A stretch of DNA of 12,102 bases from Candidatus Latescibacterota bacterium. GTDB lineage: Bacteria; Latescibacterota; UBA2968; UBA8231. Position numbers and translations under genes: made by a program. Where the stretch lies: positions 1 to 12,102 of the forward strand of contig JAJDTN010000421.1 in NCBI GenBank assembly GCA_022827165.1, in the 5' to 3' direction. The notes beneath the pieces are model-generated. The model did no database searches. It saw only the letters and a list, made by a program, of their open reading frames with translations, and was not told where the DNA came from. This document shows, piece after piece, positions 2-10,724 of this stretch (its first letter is position 1; every line of letters starts with the position of its first letter).

Positions 2-406
2 CCCTACATGCTCGTCGTGGCCCCGGTCCGGGAGGAGCACCGGCTGCCCTCCGGTTCGACTCCCGGGGGGCTGGAGCGGCGCAACGAGAGGCGCTCCACG
101 GTCCCGGCCATCACCCACGTCGACTACTCGGCCCGCGTGCAGACCGTCGACGCCGGCCACCACCCCCGGTTCCGCGGGATCGTCGAGCGCTTCAAGGAGC
201 GGACGGGGATACCGGTCCTGATCAACACCAGCTTCAACGTCCGCGGCGAGCCGATGGTGAACACCCCCGCCGACGCCTACCGCTGCTTCATGGCCACCGG
301 CATGGACGCCCTGGTCCTGGAGAGCTGCCTCCTTCTGAAGGAGGACCAGCCCGAGGCCCGGGCCTTCGACGCCTCGGCGTACCTCGCCGAGTTCGCCCTG
401 GACTGA
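2..406 (+). CDS. Carbamoyltransferase, C-terminal end (partial, cut by window start)
   Basis: This reading frame is open from base 2 and ends at TGA 404-406, so only about 134 C-terminal residues of a protein that is usually near 600 are present. Visible family motifs are PYMLVVAPV at the very edge, THVDYSARVQTVD, and IPVLINTSFNVRGEPMVNTP followed by a D-A-(F/Y)-x-C-F motif and the MDALVL strand. These are hallmarks of the C-terminal domain of the NodU/CmcH/HypF-like carbamoyltransferases, which move a carbamoyl group from carbamoyl phosphate onto a hydroxyl of a sugar, antibiotic or toxin precursor. The N-terminal catalytic (TsaD-like) domain lies outside the window, so its completeness cannot be judged. 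The SxtJ-type gene starts 17 bases downstream, which supports an operon. The acceptor substrate cannot be inferred; a surface glycan or small metabolite are both possible. The family assignment is firm. Confidence 0.93.
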   Translation, partial: PYMLVVAPVREEHRLPSGSTPGGLERRNERRSTVPAITHVDYSARVQTVDAGHHPRFRGIVERFKERTGIPVLINTSFNVRGEPMVNTPADAYRCFMATGMDALVLESCLLLKEDQPEARAFDASAYLAEFALD

Positions 407-423
407 GGGAGACCACCTGTCCC

Positions 424-861
424 ATGCTCCGGATCGACCTCCGGCCCGACCGACGCAAGCTGCGGCACTTCGGCTTCATCGCCCTCGCCGGCTTCGGCGC
501 CCTGGCGGTCATGGCCTGGTTCGAGCGGCTGGTCTTCGCCTTCGGCCTCGGCGACGCCCGTCCCATCGCCGCCGGGGTCCTGGCGGGGCTGGGACTCCTG
601 TCGGCCCTTCTCTCCCTCGTCCACCCCAGGGCCAACCGTCCCTTGTACGTCGGCCTCACCCTGCTCGCCCTGCCGGTCGGCTACCTGGTCTCCTACCTGG
701 CGATGGGCGCCTTGTTCTACCTCCTCATCACGCCCCTGGGCCTGTTCTTCCGGATCGTCGGGCGCGACCCCCTGCACCGGCGGTTCCGACGGGAGGCCCG
801 GTCCTACTGGATCCCCCTGGGGCCGCGCCCCCCCCGGGAGCGCTACTTCCGGCAGTTCTGA
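424..861 (+). CDS. SxtJ-type membrane protein
   Basis: This 145-residue integral membrane protein has hydrophobic segments at about residues 16-33 and 47-67, and a long stretch at 74-110 that probably forms two helices. A charged cytosolic-looking tail follows, with RDPLHRRF near 114-121 and SYWI near 127-130. Size, topology and the DPL...R...SYW tail match the SxtJ family, named after a small membrane protein of the saxitoxin cluster whose biochemical role is unknown to me. It starts at ATG 424. An AGGGAG motif at 406-411 is the only ribosome-binding candidate, with a long spacer. It lies between a carbamoyltransferase and a DUF5989-type gene, an order I recognise from many bacterial clusters, so it may work with the carbamoyltransferase at the membrane. 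That functional link is inference. Confidence 0.85.
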   Translation: MLRIDLRPDRRKLRHFGFIALAGFGALAVMAWFERLVFAFGLGDARPIAAGVLAGLGLLSALLSLVHPRANRPLYVGLTLLALPVGYLVSYLAMGALFYLLITPLGLFFRIVGRDPLHRRFRREARSYWIPLGPRPPRERYFRQF

Positions 862-2746: not shown

Positions 2747-4435
2747 CTAGTTCCCCGCCGGGGAATTGTCAACCAGGCGGACGACGAGGATGTTCCTCTC
2801 CGGCCCCTCCACGGAACGCGCCTGGCGCCGGAAGGAACGTTCGTCCGTACGGAAATCGGGATAGGCGGCGGCCGTGGTCACGCCGCGGGCCAGCAGCTGG
2901 CTCCACAGCGGCTCCGCGCGCTTCACGAACCCCGCCGCCACCACGAAGTAGTCGGCGCCTTCCGCCGCCAGCGAGTCGAGGCGGGAGGCCTCGAAGAGAT
3001 CCGGCGTGATCTGCCAGCCCTTGCGGTGGCAGTAGTAGAGCAGGGTCGGGCTCCGGGTGCGGAACGGGCCGCCGCGGTCCTCGTCGATGTCGCCGGTCAC
3101 CAGCCGCGCATCGGCCGGCATCCGCGCGTCGAGGACGCGTCCGGCGAGCTCGCAGCTGCGATAGTAGTTGTAGATGTTGTTCCCCGGGCGGTAGTAGTCG
3201 CCCACCTTCCAGAGACTGCCGGCGGCCACGGCCGCCAGGGCCAGACCCACCACCGCCCGGGCTCCGGGCGAGCCGGGACGGAGCCGCCGCAGCTGCCGCC
3301 CCGCCACCCCGGACAGGCGCGCGCCCCCCGGCTCCCACAGGGCGGCCAGGGGCGCAGCGGCCAAGACCGCCGCCGGCAGCGTGAAGGGCAGCTGGTAGTA
3401 GTGCAGCCGGCGGTTGCCCTCGGGGATCATGAAGAGGTAGAGCAGCAGGCCGCCGAACCAGGCGTAGAGGGGCCACACCTCGCGCCCTTGCCGGGGGCCG
3501 CCGGCACCGCGGGGCCACAGCCCGACGAGTCCGACCGCCGCCAGAAGGACGCCCATCGGCGTCAGCACGGCTTCGACGAACCGCCCCGCCATGAGGTGGT
3601 AGAAGCCGCCCTGCAGGAGCAGGTCGTGGCTCCACTTGTCGTAACCCCGGCGGCCCCAGATGCCGAAGGTGAGCCCCGTCTGCTCGAAGAGGCCGGCGGC
3701 GTGCACGTGCCAGGCCGCCGCCGGCGCCACCGCCGCCAGCAGGTAGAGCCACAGCGACCCGCGGCGCACGAAGGCAGGCCCCCAGCGGCCGAGGGCCATG
3801 GCCACGAGCGGGAATCCGAGGTACAGGGTCGGGATCTTCAGCGCGAAGCAGAGGCCGGCGATCCCGGCCGCGGCCAGCAGCCAGGCCGTCCCCTCCCGGC
3901 AGGCGCGGCCGAAGGCGCTCAGGGCGGCGGCGCTCAGCAGCAGCATGAGCGCCTCGGGCATGAAGGCGCGGCCGAAGAACAGGCTCAGGGGCAGCATCAG
4001 GTAGATCGCCGCCGCCAGGCGCGCGCCCGCGGCGCTCCCGAGCCAGGCGCGGGCCAGGCAGTACAGGGGGACGGCCGCGGCGGTGGAGAAGAGGGCCGCG
4101 AGCAACCGCCCTATCCACTCGTGGGCGCCGCCGGCCAGGGAGTAGAGGCAGGCCGCGAGGAAGGGGAAGAGGGGCAGGTTCATCTCCACGTATCCCGGCG
4201 TGTTGCCGCGCCAGTCCACGCGGGGATGGAAGAGGGTGAGACCCTCCTCGTGGAAGTTGCGGGCGATGGCCGCCGTGTCGGCCTGGCGCCACGCCTGGTG
4301 GTCGATGAGGGGCGCCGTCACCTCCACGAGGCGGAGGCCGAGGCCGGCCGCCAGGAGCAGGAGGAGCCAGCGGTCGGAGAGCAGGCGGCCGGGTCGCGAG
4401 TCGGCCGCCGGAGTGCTCTTCAGAAGGCCCGCCAA
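2747..4435 (-). CDS. GT-C membrane glycosyltransferase, PMT/ArnT-like (GT39-type)
   Basis: This protein of about 562 residues has a long polytopic membrane region (first helix about 23-37, then many up to about 410) and a C-terminal soluble part (about 415-562). The first loop carries the family signature IDHQAWRQADTAAIARNF (44-61); its Asp45 is the expected catalytic acidic residue of the ArnT/PMT_2 group. A later PEA at 160-162 and HYYQLPF at 345-351 are also typical. Such enzymes use polyprenyl-phosphate sugars and transfer them, on the periplasmic side, to lipids, glycans or proteins; the acceptor here is unknown. The start is uncertain. No ATG or GTG precedes the first helix in frame, so I chose TTG 4435-4433, which overlaps the upstream propeller gene by 16 bases. 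CTG at 4423 is an alternative. The ribosome-binding site is weak. The frame stays open far upstream, antisense or out of frame to the propeller gene, and that part is not real coding. Confidence 0.88.
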   Translation of the reverse strand: MAGLLKSTPAADSRPGRLLSDRWLLLLLAAGLGLRLVEVTAPLIDHQAWRQADTAAIARNFHEEGLTLFHPRVDWRGNTPGYVEMNLPLFPFLAACLYSLAGGAHEWIGRLLAALFSTAAAVPLYCLARAWLGSAAGARLAAAIYLMLPLSLFFGRAFMPEALMLLLSAAALSAFGRACREGTAWLLAAAGIAGLCFALKIPTLYLGFPLVAMALGRWGPAFVRRGSLWLYLLAAVAPAAAWHVHAAGLFEQTGLTFGIWGRRGYDKWSHDLLLQGGFYHLMAGRFVEAVLTPMGVLLAAVGLVGLWPRGAGGPRQGREVWPLYAWFGGLLLYLFMIPEGNRRLHYYQLPFTLPAAVLAAAPLAALWEPGGARLSGVAGRQLRRLRPGSPGARAVVGLALAAVAAGSLWKVGDYYRPGNNIYNYYRSCELAGRVLDARMPADARLVTGDIDEDRGGPFRTRSPTLLYYCHRKGWQITPDLFEASRLDSLAAEGADYFVVAAGFVKRAEPLWSQLLARGVTTAAAYPDFRTDERSFRRQARSVEGPERNILVVRLVDNSPAGN

Positions 4436-5725: not shown

Positions 5726-6223
5726 CTACTGGAACAGGTCCTTGACCTTGCCCCAGGTGCTGATGCTGACGTCGGTCGAAGCTCCCGGGGCGATGTCCGG
5801 CCACCCGGCCCCGGCGATCACCTGCCGGGCTTCGGCCCCGGGGCCGCTGGACACCACGGACCCCTCGTGCTCGATCAGGAGATGGTCGGAGCCGCCGGCG
5901 GCGCGCTCGCGCAGCCAGCCGGCGACCGGCCCCGGCCTGGAGGACTCGGAGAGCTCCTGCAGAGCCACTGTCGTCAACCCCGGGACCCGTGCGGGCGAGG
6001 GCGTGACGGCGGTCCACTCGACCTCCGGCAGGCCGCGGATCAGGCGGTGGGTGGTCCGGGCGCGTTCGACCTGGCCTGCCAGGGCGGGATCGAAATAGAA
6101 ATAGCAGTGGTGGCCGGCCGCCTCGGGGCCGGAGGCCCTCGACCCGGGCGGCCCCAGGAGGAGCAGGGCCAGCGCCAGGGCCGGCCCCGGGAGGATGCGC
6201 AGGGTGTCGTGGCTGGAGGTCAT
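5726..6223 (-). CDS. Small secreted protein, function unknown
   Basis: This 165-residue protein has an N-terminal signal peptide (about 1-31: polar start, LALALLLLG core, then SRASG). I do not recognise a named family. The mature part contains one Cys (Cys40, in HHCYFYFD) and an alternation of strands and helices. It includes WTAVTPSPARVPGLTTVALQEL in the middle and SDHLLIEHEGSVVSSGPGAEA near 112-131. The latter looks like the late 'value-plus-Gly turn' strands of a thioredoxin-like fold, but no CxxC is present, so any such fold would be redox-inactive; this is a weak guess. Its ATG shares four bases (ATGA) with the stop of the LarA/lipoprotein gene, implying translational coupling and perhaps a partnership with the lipoprotein half. 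A gap of about 106 bases follows before the propeller gene. Confidence 0.75.
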   Translation of the reverse strand: MTSSHDTLRILPGPALALALLLLGPPGSRASGPEAAGHHCYFYFDPALAGQVERARTTHRLIRGLPEVEWTAVTPSPARVPGLTTVALQELSESSRPGPVAGWLRERAAGGSDHLLIEHEGSVVSSGPGAEARQVIAGAGWPDIAPGASTDVSISTWGKVKDLFQ

Positions 6224-7323
6224 TCCGCGCGCAGCGCGTCGTTGAGACGGATGCTGTCGACGCCTTCCAGGACCCGGCTCTTCGACAGGTGTTCGCTCAG
6301 GATCTGCTCGACCTGGATGGTGCCGACGCGGCTCGGCAGAGTCTTGCCCAGCACCTCGCCGGTCTCGGGGTCCGTCAGCTCCTGGCCCTGGTCCCAGACG
6401 GCGAACTTGTCGCCGTTCCGGATGCCGTCGGCCAAGCCGAGGTTAATGTACGCGACGGCGCCGTCCACTACCATGATCCTCCCGGCGACCTCGAGGGAGG
6501 GAGGGGGCCGGATCTGCTCGGCGATGGCGGCGGCGGCGTTCTTGGCCCAGGCCGCCAGGGCCTTGCCCACCAGGGACTCGCGGAAGGTGTCCGAATTCCA
6601 GGCGAGATCGTCGAGGAAGAAGTACTGCTTGTCGAGAGGGACGAAGGCGGCCGGGTTGGTGATCCCCGTGCGCTTGCTGTCCATCACCCCCTCGGTGGAC
6701 AGCTCCCCTCCCCGGCGCCCGTCGATGGCGTTGACCAGGGTGAGGTCGGCCATGACGATGCCCTCGTAGCTGCGGTATCCGCCGAGGGGCACGGTGGCCT
6801 GGAACCGCTTCATCGTCAGCTCCTCGATGTTGCCGAGGATCACCCAGTCGGCGCCGAGAAAGGCGCCGATGCCGGCCGCGCGAGCGTGTCCGATCTCGCC
6901 GGTGAGCTCCGGCGGTTCCAGGTAGGCCAGGGCCGAGTCGACGGGGACGATGTGGTAGAAGCTGTTGTGGGCGAGGCTGTCGCCCAGGGTCCTCGCCAGG
7001 CCGCGGTGGATGTCCCAGGCCCCCTTGTACTTGGAGCTGTCGAGGAACGGCAGCAGCAGGATCTTCTGTCCCAGGAAGTCCGTGCCGTCTTGGGGGATCA
7101 AGGGCGGCGGCAGCGGCGCCTCGGCGGCCGGCTCGGCGGCGGGTTCCTCCGCCTCCTCCTCCTCCATCATCACCACCGACTCGAGGCCCGGCATGGTGGC
7201 GCAGGCCCCCAGGAGCAGGCCGCTCATGGCGAGAGCGGCGGCCAGGGGCGCCCGGCCCTTGACCGCCGGCCGCGGCCTGCGGCTGCGCGCCAGGACGTAC
7301 GGCCCCCGGGGGACGACCGCCAC
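6220..7323 (-). other. Possible separately translated lipoprotein (C-terminal part of the fused frame)
   Basis: Within the fused frame, GTG at 7323-7321 (residue 412) has GAGG five bases upstream (7329-7332). Starting there gives a protein of about 367 residues. Its N-terminus, with an arginine-rich segment, a hydrophobic core and the LGAC lipobox, is a normal if long lipoprotein signal (Cys at 41). This would let the secreted part be made without the cytoplasmic enzyme. The start is inferred; the lipobox and the domain order are visible in the sequence. Confidence 0.4.
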
Positions 7324-8556
7324 CGGCGCCTCTTCCCCGTGACCGATCCTGGCGGCCTGGATGCCCGCTTCGACGGAGGGGACCGGCTCCACAAGGCCTC
7401 GCAGGTGGGGGCCGCCGGCGTCGACGCCCTCGCTGTAGAGCAGCACCCGGGCCCGGCGCAGGACCTTGCACAGCTCCTGGAGCTGCCACTGGTCGATGCG
7501 GAAGAACCCGGGGTCCCCGAGCCGCTCCTCGAAGGCCTCGACGCTCTCCGTCTCCTCGAGGAGCTGGACGAACTCGGGGCTGCCCAGGCCCTCGGCGCAG
7601 CGCGCCGCCAGCACGATCGTGCCCCCGTCGGCGACCGCGGGCAGCACCGCGGTCAGTCCCTTGACCGCCTGGTAGAAGGTCAGGTCCAGGGGATAGCCGG
7701 CGCTGGTGGTGACCACGATCGGCACCGGCTCCTCGACCCATGCGGAGGCCCCGGCCTCGACGAAGGCCACCCCCGCCGCGTGGGCCTCCTCGAGATCGCC
7801 GGCGAAGATCCCCGTCACCTCCCTGCGGTGGTTCATGGCCACGTTGAGGGTGAAGTCCACGCCGACCCGCAGGGCGACTTCGAGAGCCTGGCGGTGGAAC
7901 GGATTGCCGTCGATGACGCCCTCCGCCGACCGGGGGTGACTCATCAGCTCGGGCCCGTGGAGCACCCGCATCGTGTCGACGCCCACGATCCCGGGGCAGA
8001 CCGCCTTGCGGCCCCCGGAGTATCCGGCCATCAGGTGCGGCTCGATCAGGGAGGTGGCGATCTTGAGGTCGGCCTCGACGTAGAGCCGGTCGATCCAGAT
8101 CGGCGCACCGCCGGAACTCCGGCCGAGATGGACGAGGCTCTCGCGGTCGCGGGCCCTGTGGTTCTCGATCCGGTAGTCGGCGGCCACCCGCGGCCCCACG
8201 AGCCGGACCAGTTCCTCTCCCTCGTTGGGCCGGTGCAAGCCGGTCCCCACCAGGATGGTGATGTCCCGGCGCTCGATCCCGGCCTCTTCGAGGGTGCGCA
8301 ACAACGGCGGCAGGATGACGGGGTTGGGCACGGGCCGGGTGATGTCGGAGATGACGACGCAGGCGCTGCGGCGGCCCCGGGCCAGCCGCGCCAGGGCGGG
8401 GGCCCCGATCGGCTGCCGAAAGGCCTCCTCCAGCCGGGCGTCGACATCGTCCAGGGCGGGCACGTCGGCCATGTCCAGGATCCGGGCCGCGGCCGGGATC
8501 TCTGCCTCGAGGCCGTGCTCTCCGTAGTCCAGGCGCAGGCGGCGGGTGGATGGCAT
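6220..8556 (-). CDS. LarA-type lactate racemase joined in frame to a CsgG/FlgT-like lipoprotein
   Basis: This is one open frame of 778 residues, starting at ATG 8556 with GGAGG four bases upstream. Residues 1-423 are a complete LarA-like (DUF2088) nickel-pincer enzyme. SDITRP is at 70-75, His108 in GTGLHRP, EPHLMAGYSGGRK at 172-184 with His174 and Lys184, and His200 in RVLHGPE. In Lactobacillus plantarum LarA the equivalent residues are catalytic histidines, the cofactor-bound lysine and a nickel ligand. LarA normally ends after the GPYVL-like motif seen at 418-422. Here a basic stretch, a hydrophobic stretch and lipobox LGAC (Cys452) follow, then an acidic Ala/Pro linker (463-487). A CsgG/TolB-N-like domain (about 495-682, KILLLPF) and a FlgT-C-like domain (about 690-770, YINLGLADGIRNGDKF) complete the frame. 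No larB, larC or larE is in the window. A true fusion, a lost stop codon or separate internal initiation are all possible. Confidence 0.88.
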   Translation of the reverse strand: MPSTRRLRLDYGEHGLEAEIPAAARILDMADVPALDDVDARLEEAFRQPIGAPALARLARGRRSACVVISDITRPVPNPVILPPLLRTLEEAGIERRDITILVGTGLHRPNEGEELVRLVGPRVAADYRIENHRARDRESLVHLGRSSGGAPIWIDRLYVEADLKIATSLIEPHLMAGYSGGRKAVCPGIVGVDTMRVLHGPELMSHPRSAEGVIDGNPFHRQALEVALRVGVDFTLNVAMNHRREVTGIFAGDLEEAHAAGVAFVEAGASAWVEEPVPIVVTTSAGYPLDLTFYQAVKGLTAVLPAVADGGTIVLAARCAEGLGSPEFVQLLEETESVEAFEERLGDPGFFRIDQWQLQELCKVLRRARVLLYSEGVDAGGPHLRGLVEPVPSVEAGIQAARIGHGEEAPVAVVPRGPYVLARSRRPRPAVKGRAPLAAALAMSGLLLGACATMPGLESVVMMEEEEAEEPAAEPAAEAPLPPPLIPQDGTDFLGQKILLLPFLDSSKYKGAWDIHRGLARTLGDSLAHNSFYHIVPVDSALAYLEPPELTGEIGHARAAGIGAFLGADWVILGNIEELTMKRFQATVPLGGYRSYEGIVMADLTLVNAIDGRRGGELSTEGVMDSKRTGITNPAAFVPLDKQYFFLDDLAWNSDTFRESLVGKALAAWAKNAAAAIAEQIRPPPSLEVAGRIMVVDGAVAYINLGLADGIRNGDKFAVWDQGQELTDPETGEVLGKTLPSRVGTIQVEQILSEHLSKSRVLEGVDSIRLNDALRAE
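7201..7287 (-). other. Internal lipoprotein signal segment at the LarA/lipoprotein junction
   Basis: This segment encodes residues 424-452 of the fused frame. It holds a basic n-region (RSRRPRPAVKGR), a hydrophobic core of about 15 residues (from APLAAALAM to LLLGA) and the lipobox cysteine Cys452. Such a segment normally stands at a protein N-terminus. There is no ATG or GTG between the LarA end and the hydrophobic core. The other two minus-strand frames also give no start here that would yield a good signal peptide. Confidence 0.75.
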
Positions 8557-8560
8557 CCGT

Positions 8561-8567
8561 CCTCCTT
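8561..8567 (-). promoter_or_regulatory. Shine-Dalgarno site for the LarA-type gene
   Basis: Read on the minus strand this is AAGGAGG, four bases before ATG 8556. It lies in the 13-base gap after the GalU-type stop, so the gene has its own strong ribosome-binding site although it is probably co-transcribed with galU. Confidence 0.65.
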
Positions 8568-8569
8568 CC

Positions 8570-9442
8570 TCAGAGGCGGGAGCGCAGGTAGTCGGCGAAG
8601 GCCGGGCCGTTCTCGGGGTCGGCGAGAGCGAAGTCGGCGAAGGCCCGGTAGTAGGTCAGTGGGGTTCCGATGTCGTAGCGCCGTTCACCCGGGGCCAGCT
8701 GCACGCAGCGGACGCCGTCCCCCCATTCGAGGAGGCGGCGGACCGCGTCCGTGAGCCAGATCTCCCCGTTCATCCCCGGGTCGGTTGCGGCGATCGCCTC
8801 GAAGATGCGCGGGGTGAAGACATAGCGGGCGGCCACGGCCAGGCGGCTCGGGGCCTCCGAGGCGGCCGGCTTCTCGACGATGCCGTCGATGGCGAAGGCC
8901 CCCCCGGCCCGGTCCTCGGCCGGCCTCACCACGCCGTACCTGGAGGTCTCTTCCAGCGGAACCTCCCAGACGGCGATCGTGGCGCTGGCGCCGGAGCGCT
9001 CGTGCTCGTCCACCAGGCGGCGGACGACGCCCGGTTGGCCCTGGGAGGCGAGGATCGTGTCGCCGAAGCCGACGACGAAGGACTCGCCGCCGACGAACTC
9101 GGCCGCCAGCCGCACGGCATCGGCATTGCCCAGGGGACGCCGCTGCCGGACGTAGAAGAACTCGACACTCTCGCGGTCGTAGTCGACCTCCCCGATCCGG
9201 TCCTTGGCGCCGACGCGCGACTCGAGCTCCGGGTCGTCGTCGAAGTGGTCCTCGATGGACCGCTTCTTGCGGCCCGTGACGAAGAGGAACTTGCCGACCC
9301 CCTGCTCGATCATCTCCTCCACCACGTACTGGACCACCGGCTTGTAGCCTACGGGCAGCATCTCCTTGGGCTGGGACTTGGTCGCCGGCAACAGGCGAGT
9401 CCCCAGGCCGGCCACGGGCAGCACGGCTTTGTCGATCGCCAT
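8570..9442 (-). CDS. galU: UTP-glucose-1-phosphate uridylyltransferase (GalU type)
   Basis: This 290-residue protein is the normal GalU length. It makes UDP-glucose (or a close sugar nucleotide) from UTP and glucose 1-phosphate in the cytoplasm, a precursor for envelope glycans. The nucleotide-binding start LPVAGLGTRLLPATKSQPKEML is at residues 8-29. VTGRKKRSIEDHFD is at 55-68, EKP at 190-192, RYVFTPRIFEAI at 206-217, NGEIWLTDA at 225-233 and RYDIGTPLTYY at 255-265. Two places differ from standard GalU: PLGNADAV (103-110) replaces the usual PLGLGHAV, and VGFGDTIL (124-131) replaces the usual LLPD-type strand, though Asp128 is kept. A shifted sugar specificity is therefore possible. ATG 9442 is preferred because it opens directly on the conserved core; a start further upstream adds only shadow sequence. 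It is the first gene of the minus-strand block. Confidence 0.92.
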   Translation of the reverse strand: MAIDKAVLPVAGLGTRLLPATKSQPKEMLPVGYKPVVQYVVEEMIEQGVGKFLFVTGRKKRSIEDHFDDDPELESRVGAKDRIGEVDYDRESVEFFYVRQRRPLGNADAVRLAAEFVGGESFVVGFGDTILASQGQPGVVRRLVDEHERSGASATIAVWEVPLEETSRYGVVRPAEDRAGGAFAIDGIVEKPAASEAPSRLAVAARYVFTPRIFEAIAATDPGMNGEIWLTDAVRRLLEWGDGVRCVQLAPGERRYDIGTPLTYYRAFADFALADPENGPAFADYLRSRL

Positions 9443-9465
9443 CGGAGACCTTTCGGATCGGGCTG

Positions 9466-9478
9466 GATTGCAGCAATC
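9466..9478. promoter_or_regulatory. Perfect inverted repeat, possible operator
   Basis: GATTGC-A-GCAATC is a perfect 6-base inverted repeat with a one-base centre. It sits in the galU/kinase divergent region and overlaps the candidate -10 box of galU. This is AT-richer than the surroundings. A regulator binding here could control galU and possibly the kinase. It could also be a chance palindrome. Confidence 0.35.
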
Positions 9479-9502
9479 TAGGGGTGGTTTCGATTTCAGC
9501 AA
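9475..9502 (-). promoter_or_regulatory. Candidate sigma-70-type promoter for the galU operon
   Basis: Read on the minus strand, TTGCTG (9502-9497), a 16-base spacer and TAGATT (9480-9475) resemble -35 and -10 boxes. They lie 33 bases or more upstream of ATG 9442 in the only divergent intergenic region of the window. The match is partial and the host sigma factor preferences are unknown. Confidence 0.35.
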
Positions 9503-9566
9503 GGCGCGGGGAGGCCGCGAGGCCGCCGCCTGTGCGGCCCCTCGGAAGGGCCGGGATCGCCTCGAT

Positions 9567-10724
9567 ATGGCTGTGACTGCTCCAGGCCCGTCCGGTTCCT
9601 TGGCGCCGGCCGCCGGACCCCTTCGCAGGGTCCCGCGGCGCGGCGCCGGACTGGGCACCGCCCTCTCCCGCGGCCGGCTGGAGGAACTGCTGGTACGCCT
9701 GCGCGGCCTGAGGATCGCCGTGGTGGGCGACTTCTTCCTCGACGCCTACTACGACTGCGACCCCGGTCTCGACGAGGCCTCCCTGGAGACGGGCAACACC
9801 TGCTACCAAGTCGTGCGCACCCGCCGCCAGCCGGGAGCCGCCGGCGCCGTCGCCGCCGACCTCGCCGCCCTCGGCGCCGGCAGCGTCCACGCCATCGGCT
9901 TCTGCGGGGAGGACGGGGAAGGTTGGGAGCTGCGGCGCGCCCTGGAGGGCCTCGGCGTCGAGATGGCCGGCTTCCTCACCGCGCCGGAGCGGCGCACGCC
10001 GACGTACGGCAAGATCTGCCAGGTGGGAAGGGACGGCGGCCGGCTCGTCCTCCGCCGGGAGCTGGAACGCCTGGACATCCGCAACCGGCGGCGGACGCCG
10101 CCGTGGGTGCAGGAAGGGCTGACCGGATACCTGCGCGCCGGGCGATGGGACGCCGTGGCCGTCGTCGATCAGGTCCCGGACGCCGGCTGCGGCGTGGTCA
10201 CGGCGGCCATGCGGTCCTGCCTGGAGGATCTGGCCGCGGGCCACCCGGAACGGTTGATCCTCGTCGATTCGCGGCAGCGCCTCCGCCGCTTCCCCCGGCT
10301 GCCGGTCAAGCCGAACCGCCGCGAGGCGGCCGCCGCCCTCGGACAGCCTCCGGCCCGCTCGGTCCGCGCCGCGGCGATGCAGGCCCGGCAGCTGGCGGCG
10401 GGAAGGCGGCCGGTCTTTCTCACCTTGGCGGAGAGAGGCCTGGTGGCGGCCGACCCCGGGGGGCCGTTGCACCACGTGGCCGGATTCCCGCCGCCATCCG
10501 GAGTGCCCGTCGACCCGGTGGGCGCCGGTGACTGCATCACCGCGGCCCTGACCTGCTGCCTGGCCGCCGGCGCCTCCCCGGTGGAGGCGGCGCTGGTGGC
10601 CAACCTGGCGGGCTCGGTCACGGTGCGGCAGATCGGCACCACCGGCACCGCGTCGCCGGCCCAGGTCCGCCGACGGTGGCGTGAAGTGGACGCCGATGAT
10701 GGCGGTCCCGGCCACGGCCGGTGA
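9567..10724 (+). CDS. PfkB-family sugar kinase, heptose-kinase (RfaE/HldE N-domain) type
   Basis: This 385-residue protein is a cytoplasmic ATP-dependent carbohydrate kinase. The first strand AVVGDFFLDAYYD is at 51-63, the substrate-side box PGAAGAVAADLAALG at 89-103, PTYGK at 145-149 and KPNRREA at 248-254. The PfkB signature DPVGAGDCITAA is at 316-327, with the expected catalytic Asp322. The C-terminal QIGTTGTASPAQV (355-367) is typical of the heptose-7-phosphate kinase branch. There is no C-terminal nucleotidyltransferase domain, so it is not a bifunctional HldE. It could phosphorylate heptose 7-phosphate or another sugar; the usual 'ISPEAPVPV' box is replaced by EASLETGNTCYQV (70-82), so the substrate may differ. 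The first 47 residues are a Pro/Gly/Arg-rich extension, and no clear ribosome-binding site marks ATG 9567, so the true start may be further in. It is divergent from galU. Confidence 0.87.
   Translation: MAVTAPGPSGSLAPAAGPLRRVPRRGAGLGTALSRGRLEELLVRLRGLRIAVVGDFFLDAYYDCDPGLDEASLETGNTCYQVVRTRRQPGAAGAVAADLAALGAGSVHAIGFCGEDGEGWELRRALEGLGVEMAGFLTAPERRTPTYGKICQVGRDGGRLVLRRELERLDIRNRRRTPPWVQEGLTGYLRAGRWDAVAVVDQVPDAGCGVVTAAMRSCLEDLAAGHPERLILVDSRQRLRRFPRLPVKPNRREAAAALGQPPARSVRAAAMQARQLAAGRRPVFLTLAERGLVAADPGGPLHHVAGFPPPSGVPVDPVGAGDCITAALTCCLAAGASPVEAALVANLAGSVTVRQIGTTGTASPAQVRRRWREVDADDGGPGHGR

Follow-up and report, generated by a model that had tools for sequence, protein, structure and literature searches.

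A LarA-type racemase gene joined in frame to a neighbouring envelope lipoprotein-like gene through an internal signal-like stretch

An internal signal peptide between fused neighbours is known from FbcH, the cytochrome b/c1 precursor of Bradyrhizobium japonicum, in which the signal is cut post-translationally to yield two proteins; in this case the signal follows a membrane protein, and the cut is attributed to signal peptidase I. Bitopic regulators of the ToxR/CadC type are composed of an N-terminal cytoplasmic domain, one hydrophobic segment and a C-terminal periplasmic domain. The racemase LarA depends on a cytoplasmic cofactor pathway, its cofactor being made by LarB, LarC and LarE. The current work concerns a 12,102-nucleotide stretch of Candidatus Latescibacterota DNA (assembly GCA_022827165.1, contig JAJDTN010000421.1; the whole stretch is referred to as the window), in which, judging from its sequence, larA is joined in frame to the neighbouring gene of an envelope lipoprotein, an arrangement found in a small group known mainly from environmental DNA.

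This locus departs from each of these systems. Its lipobox-like site, of the kind cut by signal peptidase II, comes after a soluble enzyme, as opposed to the membrane protein of FbcH, while the ToxR/CadC-type regulators carry a DNA-binding domain instead of an enzyme and are without a Cys or lipobox at the outer end of their hydrophobic segment. Relative to the LarA superfamily, the fused protein possesses an additional C-terminal signal-like stretch and an envelope domain. This envelope half is 15-16% identical to FlgT/PelC/TolB-N/CsgG-like envelope proteins, with Foldseek TM-scores of 0.39, and unlike them is located in a galU-larA-TolB-like cluster. An overlapping gene pair appears to have become one gene across a cell-compartment boundary, and to have persisted as such.

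The two halves of the open reading frame

The fused open reading frame (ORF) occupies positions 6220-8556 (minus strand) and contains 778 codons, with an ATG start and no internal stop. Its start at 8556, 13 bases after a galU-like gene, is characterized by strong pairing with the anti-Shine-Dalgarno (anti-SD) sequence (-11.7 kcal/mol). Residues 1-422 (7291..8556, minus strand) represent a LarA-type (nickel-pincer nucleotide) 2-hydroxyacid racemase domain, as indicated by Pfam, NCBIfam, a match to solved structures and a structure model. The Pfam families Lar_N (residues 11-212) and LarA_C (277-419) are both matched far over cut-off; since the NCBIfam LarA score of 384 bits does not reach the cut-off of 460 for the lactate racemase equivalog, the protein is referred to as a LarA homologue and not as a lactate racemase. 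The full-length model is confident to about residue 425 and poor after residue 430, few alignment rows covering the full length.

The nearest solved sequences to the LarA half, 9eid/9eia (444 bits, residues 6-422 aligned), are entitled ‘broad-substrate spectrum lactate racemase A’ and are taken by this name to be the Isosphaera pallida LarA for which the accessible text of PMC11851776 describes the roles of cofactor, nickel and substrate residues. Ten residues of that enzyme (Arg73, His107, His173, Leu174, Met175, Lys183, His199, Tyr294, Gln295 and Lys298) have counterparts here, all invariant in an alignment of 12 fused proteins, being the window protein and the 11 database proteins introduced below. 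They include, with roles as assigned in that text, the cofactor Lys (K184), the nickel ligand H200, the catalytic H108 and H174, and the substrate residues R74, Q296 and K299. The sequence-only reading had recognized a full-length LarA region with His108, His174, Lys184 and His200, which the Pfam matches and this invariance bear out. An 821-codon open frame on the plus strand (6289-8754) runs antisense to the fused gene and is probably a by-product of high G+C content rather than a gene.

The last LarA motif, GPYVL (residues 418-422), is followed by an internal signal-like stretch (residues 423-451; 7204..7290, minus strand), recognized by its layout as a basic n-region and an Ala/Leu core, and comprising between GPYVL and Cys452 29 residues with six basic side chains. 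All 12 fused proteins possess in this stretch five to seven Arg/Lys residues, a hydrophobic core and a Cys, with 26 or 29 residues between Leu422 and Cys452 and a mean pairwise identity of 0.73-0.75; no Met occurs at residues 413-443 in any of them. The core encompasses about 15 residues, similar to the signals of the split relatives described below. Cys452 (LLGA|C; 7201..7203, minus strand), the predicted site of lipidation and of LspA cleavage, is invariant in 12/12 fused proteins, within a motif that is non-textbook. Unless translation begins at a nested start, this signal is positioned near residue 423 and so is not N-terminal in the protein produced, for which reason only the label ‘lipoprotein-like’ is applied.

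Residues 453-492 (7081..7200, minus strand) consist of a conserved MPG.ESVVMM sequence and a variable acidic/Pro linker (mean pairwise identity 0.59 over residues 465-492). The remaining part, residues 493-778 plus stop (6220..7080, minus strand), is assigned by model, structure search and Pfam as a periplasmic domain, with a FlgT/PelC/TolB-N/CsgG-like fold succeeded by a FlgT-C-like part. A model of the C-terminal 353 residues (28 alignment rows) has a mean pLDDT of 77.9; nearly all of its first 65 residues fall short of 50, and values become mostly 88-97 at about ORF residue 496, with dips to about 56-60 near residues 586-595 and 626-645. FlgT (8z5n, 3w1e) ranks at the top in both Foldseek and VIA-align, and the matches that follow include Chlamydia CT253, PelC, the TolB N-terminal domain and CsgG; 8z5n is aligned over the first subdomain only, and 3w1e over both parts (rmsd 12.7). 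In the modelled fold FlgT is therefore closer than CsgG, at low identity. Of the CsgG-like and FlgT-C-like domains proposed previously, the latter is matched by Pfam FlgT_C (residues 702-755) barely over cut-off (27.7 vs 27 bits), whereas the CsgG likeness holds by fold only, the fused protein having no Pfam match to CsgG. Across the 12 ORFs of the window that were scanned, Pfam matched no flagellar family besides FlgT_C itself.

Distribution and origin of the fusion

A protein database search with the fused protein (best 120 of 2688 matches, so that weaker fused forms could be unseen) retrieved at least 11 proteins that share this layout at lengths of 741-778 residues and, among the matches listed, are 84-99% identical to the window protein. 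The other 109 of these 120 matches are LarA-sized (427-453 residues). The sequence-only reading, in which LarA was seen to continue without a stop into a basic n-region, a hydrophobic core and Cys452, is thus substantiated by an open ORF and by 11 other proteins of like build, the sharing of which layout excludes chance. As LarAs under about 427 residues could not be listed in this first search, a search with LarA alone was added (best 120 of 5515 matches), and among these matches no LarA-only protein is more than 77% identical to the LarA half. The longest contigs carrying fused proteins measure 4.8, 6.0 and 3.0 Mb (P0002, P0003 and P0007, respectively), while P0001, at 99% identity, may originate from the same population as the window. 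In another fused protein, P0011, the first approximately 48 residues are unlike those of the others, which may reflect a wrong start, a frame slip or a local error.

The envelope-half search retrieved 27 shorter proteins of 241-376 residues, 24 of which were judged by eye to have a signal-like N-terminus. Two envelope-half entries, P0121 and P0146 (72% and 83% identical to the fused group, respectively), start after the signal region, for which a start-calling error, a broken copy or an unfused member are the candidate explanations; the end of P0146 is out of register.

Among 25 public genomes of the family, 21 contain a close larA, being fused in one (G001, at locus L001, with 28x coverage according to its record) and split in 20; the other four (G013, G014, G022 and G024) have no close larA match and are uninformative. 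Neither half has a close second copy in G001, the next matches being at 37% and 29%. In all 20 readable split relatives larA and the envelope gene are separate, adjacent and overlapping, the reading frame of the second gene being shifted identically each time and the overlap being NTGA in 11 and TGATG or TAATG in nine. A stop and a start that are conserved at one place usually indicate translational coupling according to the accessible part of PMC3711429, and the ancestral larA and lipoprotein genes were probably coupled in this manner, as their overlap suggests. The overlap or fusion of the two genes in 21 of 25 genomes offers a way to approach the question of what ties a nickel racemase gene to that of an envelope protein in this family.

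In the fused protein the place of the ancestral overlap is near residue 430. Mutations were simulated at 16 positions of the overlap: inserting one base or deleting two merged the frames in 20/20 loci, whereas none of the 20 was fused by any substitution or one-base deletion tried at these positions, and stop loss by substitution was rejected as the origin. The previous statement that no simple single frameshift explains the fusion is consequently wrong as regards its origin. It had been based on the absence of a good stop/start pair in the other two frames, and it is correct that in the window the only stop in the other two forward frames across codons 405-455 is a TGA overlapping ATG 7227, L001 having none there; likewise, the assignment of Cys452 to 7203-7201, GTG 7323 to codon 412 and ATG 7227 to codon 444 stands.

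Fused rows constitute one group, with support 100/100, in each of two midpoint-rooted trees. The LarA tree (40 rows) holds 11 fused rows, 10 of the 109 LarA-only proteins and 19 loci, P0011 being left out owing to its deviating first residues; the envelope tree (48 rows) holds 12 fused rows, 17 of the 27 shorter proteins (not P0121, P0133, P0134 and P0141-P0147) and 19 loci, and L101 and L014 are in neither tree. Because the nearest rows outside the fused group are unfused, and because the relatives are split and overlapping with the same shifted frame in 20/20 loci, the fusion would most simply be derived, from a single event, and kept since. Between the window and L001, both open at the DNA level with junctions that differ by nine bases, dN/dS is 0.23 in LarA and 0.29 in the envelope core, which indicates that both halves are under purifying selection; codons 423-452 give 0.14 and the linker 0.42.

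The fate of the fused chain

The reading we prefer, to which we assign an even chance, is that of a two-product precursor, in which LarA is cytoplasmic and the buried signal is inserted Nin-Cout, with Lgt and LspA acting at Cys452. A frame-changing indel in the overlap would have fused larA and the lipoprotein gene in the ancestor of the group; LarA would fold and obtain its cofactor in the cytoplasm, after which residues 423-451 would enter the Sec pathway, leaving LarA on the inner side and the remainder outside, followed by lipidation of Cys452 by Lgt and a cut before this residue by LspA. The products would be a lipoprotein resembling that of the relatives and an inner-membrane LarA with a 29-residue basic-hydrophobic tail. 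The masses computed for the two are 48 and 35 kDa, out of a full chain of about 83 kDa. The more specific proposal of a natural bacterial polyprotein, in which a lipoprotein is extended at its N-terminus by a soluble cytoplasmic metalloenzyme and both are released when signal peptidase II cuts at an internal lipobox, the enzyme staying tail-anchored at the inner membrane beside the exit site of the lipoprotein, we place a little short of even.

Nin-Cout insertion is proposed because LarA needs its cytoplasmic cofactor pathway and the FlgT-like part belongs outside, as the signals carried by the split relatives suggest, and the basic inner flank fits such insertion. As Cys452 would in this topology lie at the site of Lgt and LspA action, the chain would most simply be cut into two products; G001 contains Lgt and LspA, and its LarB, LarC and LarE are all over cut-off. 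Insertion, lipidation, cleavage and tail fate are nevertheless all inferred from sequence. Cleavage of the internal signal would mean that the processing of lipoproteins tolerates a folded enzyme of 420 residues ahead of it, and such a case would be missed by predictors built on N-termini.

Several observations weigh against this precursor. The textbook lipobox, given as L-[AS]-[GA]-C in the accessible text of PMC9360617, is present in just one of the 12 fused signals (P0011) compared to 12 of 35 split signals tried, and a looser pattern in 6/12 compared to 28/35, the 35 including near-copies (L082/P0135 and L083/P0127); furthermore, Trp occupies position -3 in five fused proteins (P0006-P0010). 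By eye, a lipobox-like Cys is found in 11 of the 20 split relatives and not in the other nine (eight being without any Cys in the signal, and L096 having one in VAVC), and lipidation is for this reason not general in the family. Fused DNA is represented by just two members, the window and L001, between which codons 438-452 have a dN/dS of 0.98, with three changes only. A title-level literature search on LarA fusions, internal signals or lipoboxes and FbcH found, among the titles listed, no bacterial lipobox behind a folded domain of 420 residues and none on this LarA-lipoprotein fusion; in the accessible part of PMC11770544, mentions of fusion concern tags and silica, and neither ‘membrane’ nor ‘signal peptide’ is mentioned. 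Finally, a nested start would yield the lipoprotein without cutting any fusion.

Under the last of these possibilities, the lipoprotein is started inside larA at GTG 7323 (codon 412; 7321..7323, minus strand) with a 40-residue signal peptide, the full-length chain being a by-product or second product. This GTG is the only ATG, GTG or TTG between codons 395 and 443 in the window and is also present in L001, and residue 412 is V, M or L, never I, in 11/11 database fused proteins, compared to I in 69 of the 109 LarA-only proteins listed (18 V, 6 L, 3 M, 2 F, 1 T and 10 without the motif). However, V or M is also found in the nearest LarA-only proteins (P0012, P0013, L082 and L083), so that ancestry can explain this preference. 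The anti-SD pairing at the candidate start is moreover ordinary (-5.8 and -6.5 kcal/mol in the window and L001, respectively, vs -11.7 at the true start): 23% of the codons of the gene pair as well as -5.8 kcal/mol or better, and values of -1.7 to -6.5 kcal/mol are obtained at the same place in the 20 split relatives, where the lipoprotein cannot start there. We regard a nested start as distinctly unlikely. A chain that stays uncut, its hydrophobic segment anchoring a cytoplasmic LarA and a periplasmic FlgT-like domain in a ToxR-like topology, is rather unlikely yet deserves to be reckoned with: it shares the Nin-Cout topology and the very basic inner flank, and is in line with the weak lipobox motif and with the fused state of all 12 known members, but it has to accommodate a core of about 15 residues as in the split relatives' signals, an invariant Cys452, and the presence of Lgt and LspA in G001.

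A purely cytoplasmic or decaying fusion, the envelope half of which is no longer exported, would agree with a partly eroded lipobox motif, export being inferred from sequence; the low dN/dS of the envelope core and of LarA, together with the basic-hydrophobic-Cys layout kept in 12/12 proteins, leaves this alternative little probability. The least credible is a sequencing or assembly error or a strain-level stop loss, an option raised in the sequence-only reading. The relatives are indeed split, and the protein database contains open frames only, so that broken copies would not appear as fused and the 12-protein set cannot show how often the frame breaks. Nevertheless, given that the 12 fused proteins group together, that none of the unfused LarAs listed exceeds 77% identity, that both halves are under purifying selection and that two DNA sequences are open across differing junctions, such an error is very unlikely, to the point of being negligible. 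From that earlier reading, therefore, a genuine fusion through an internal signal-like stretch is retained, its error and stop-loss options are set aside as very unlikely, and its frameshift statement is corrected; the split relatives that were to speak against the fusion exist, while the stop codon that was to accompany them at this place is absent from the window and L001.

Three further observations relate to the signal. A start at ATG 7227 was rejected, as this codon is CTG in L001, is Met in only four of the 12 proteins (window, P0001, P0004 and P0005) and would give too short a signal. A Tat signal (motif in the accessible text of PMC9360617) was likewise rejected, given that SRR lacks following FLK-type residues and reads SRG in 2/12 proteins. 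In L091-L093 and L095-L100 the envelope signal is without a lipobox-like Cys (e.g. YWGADG), and exactly these nine have the TGATG/TAATG overlap and not NTGA.

Neighbouring genes

The cluster has the order galU, larA, envelope protein, small protein, TolB-like lipoprotein, glycosyltransferase-like membrane protein and lipoprotein, and is largely conserved in split relatives, with members missing in some. Upstream of the fused gene is the galU-like nucleotidyltransferase gene (8570..9442, minus strand; start taken at MAIDKAV), assigned by synteny and a score of 259 bits, under the galU cut-off of 326.8. Downstream, a gene that is also syntenic (5726..6223, minus strand) specifies a 165-aa protein whose N-terminal stretch is hydrophobic, and the ATG of this gene overlaps the stop of the fused gene (ATGA, 6220-6223); this overlap is also present in L001 and is of the same kind as that lost at the fusion point.

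Among the 65 first-scan loci outside the family, an envelope-half match (E <= 1e-4) was obtained in one (L079) and in none of the other 64, four of which have less than 1.5 kb after larA. A galU-like match at the same threshold, by similarity only, was obtained in 42 of the 80 first-scan loci, 28 of these being outside the family loci L001-L015 (e.g. L017-L019, L022 and L024) and mostly titled Poribacteria; the galU-larA link may be older than the link to the envelope gene. Elsewhere in the window, family matches indicate a carbamoyltransferase C-terminus (8-406, plus strand), a weak SxtJ match just under cut-off (424-861, plus strand), a PMT_2-type glycosyltransferase-like protein (2747-4420, minus strand) and a PfkB-type kinase (9366-10724, plus strand).

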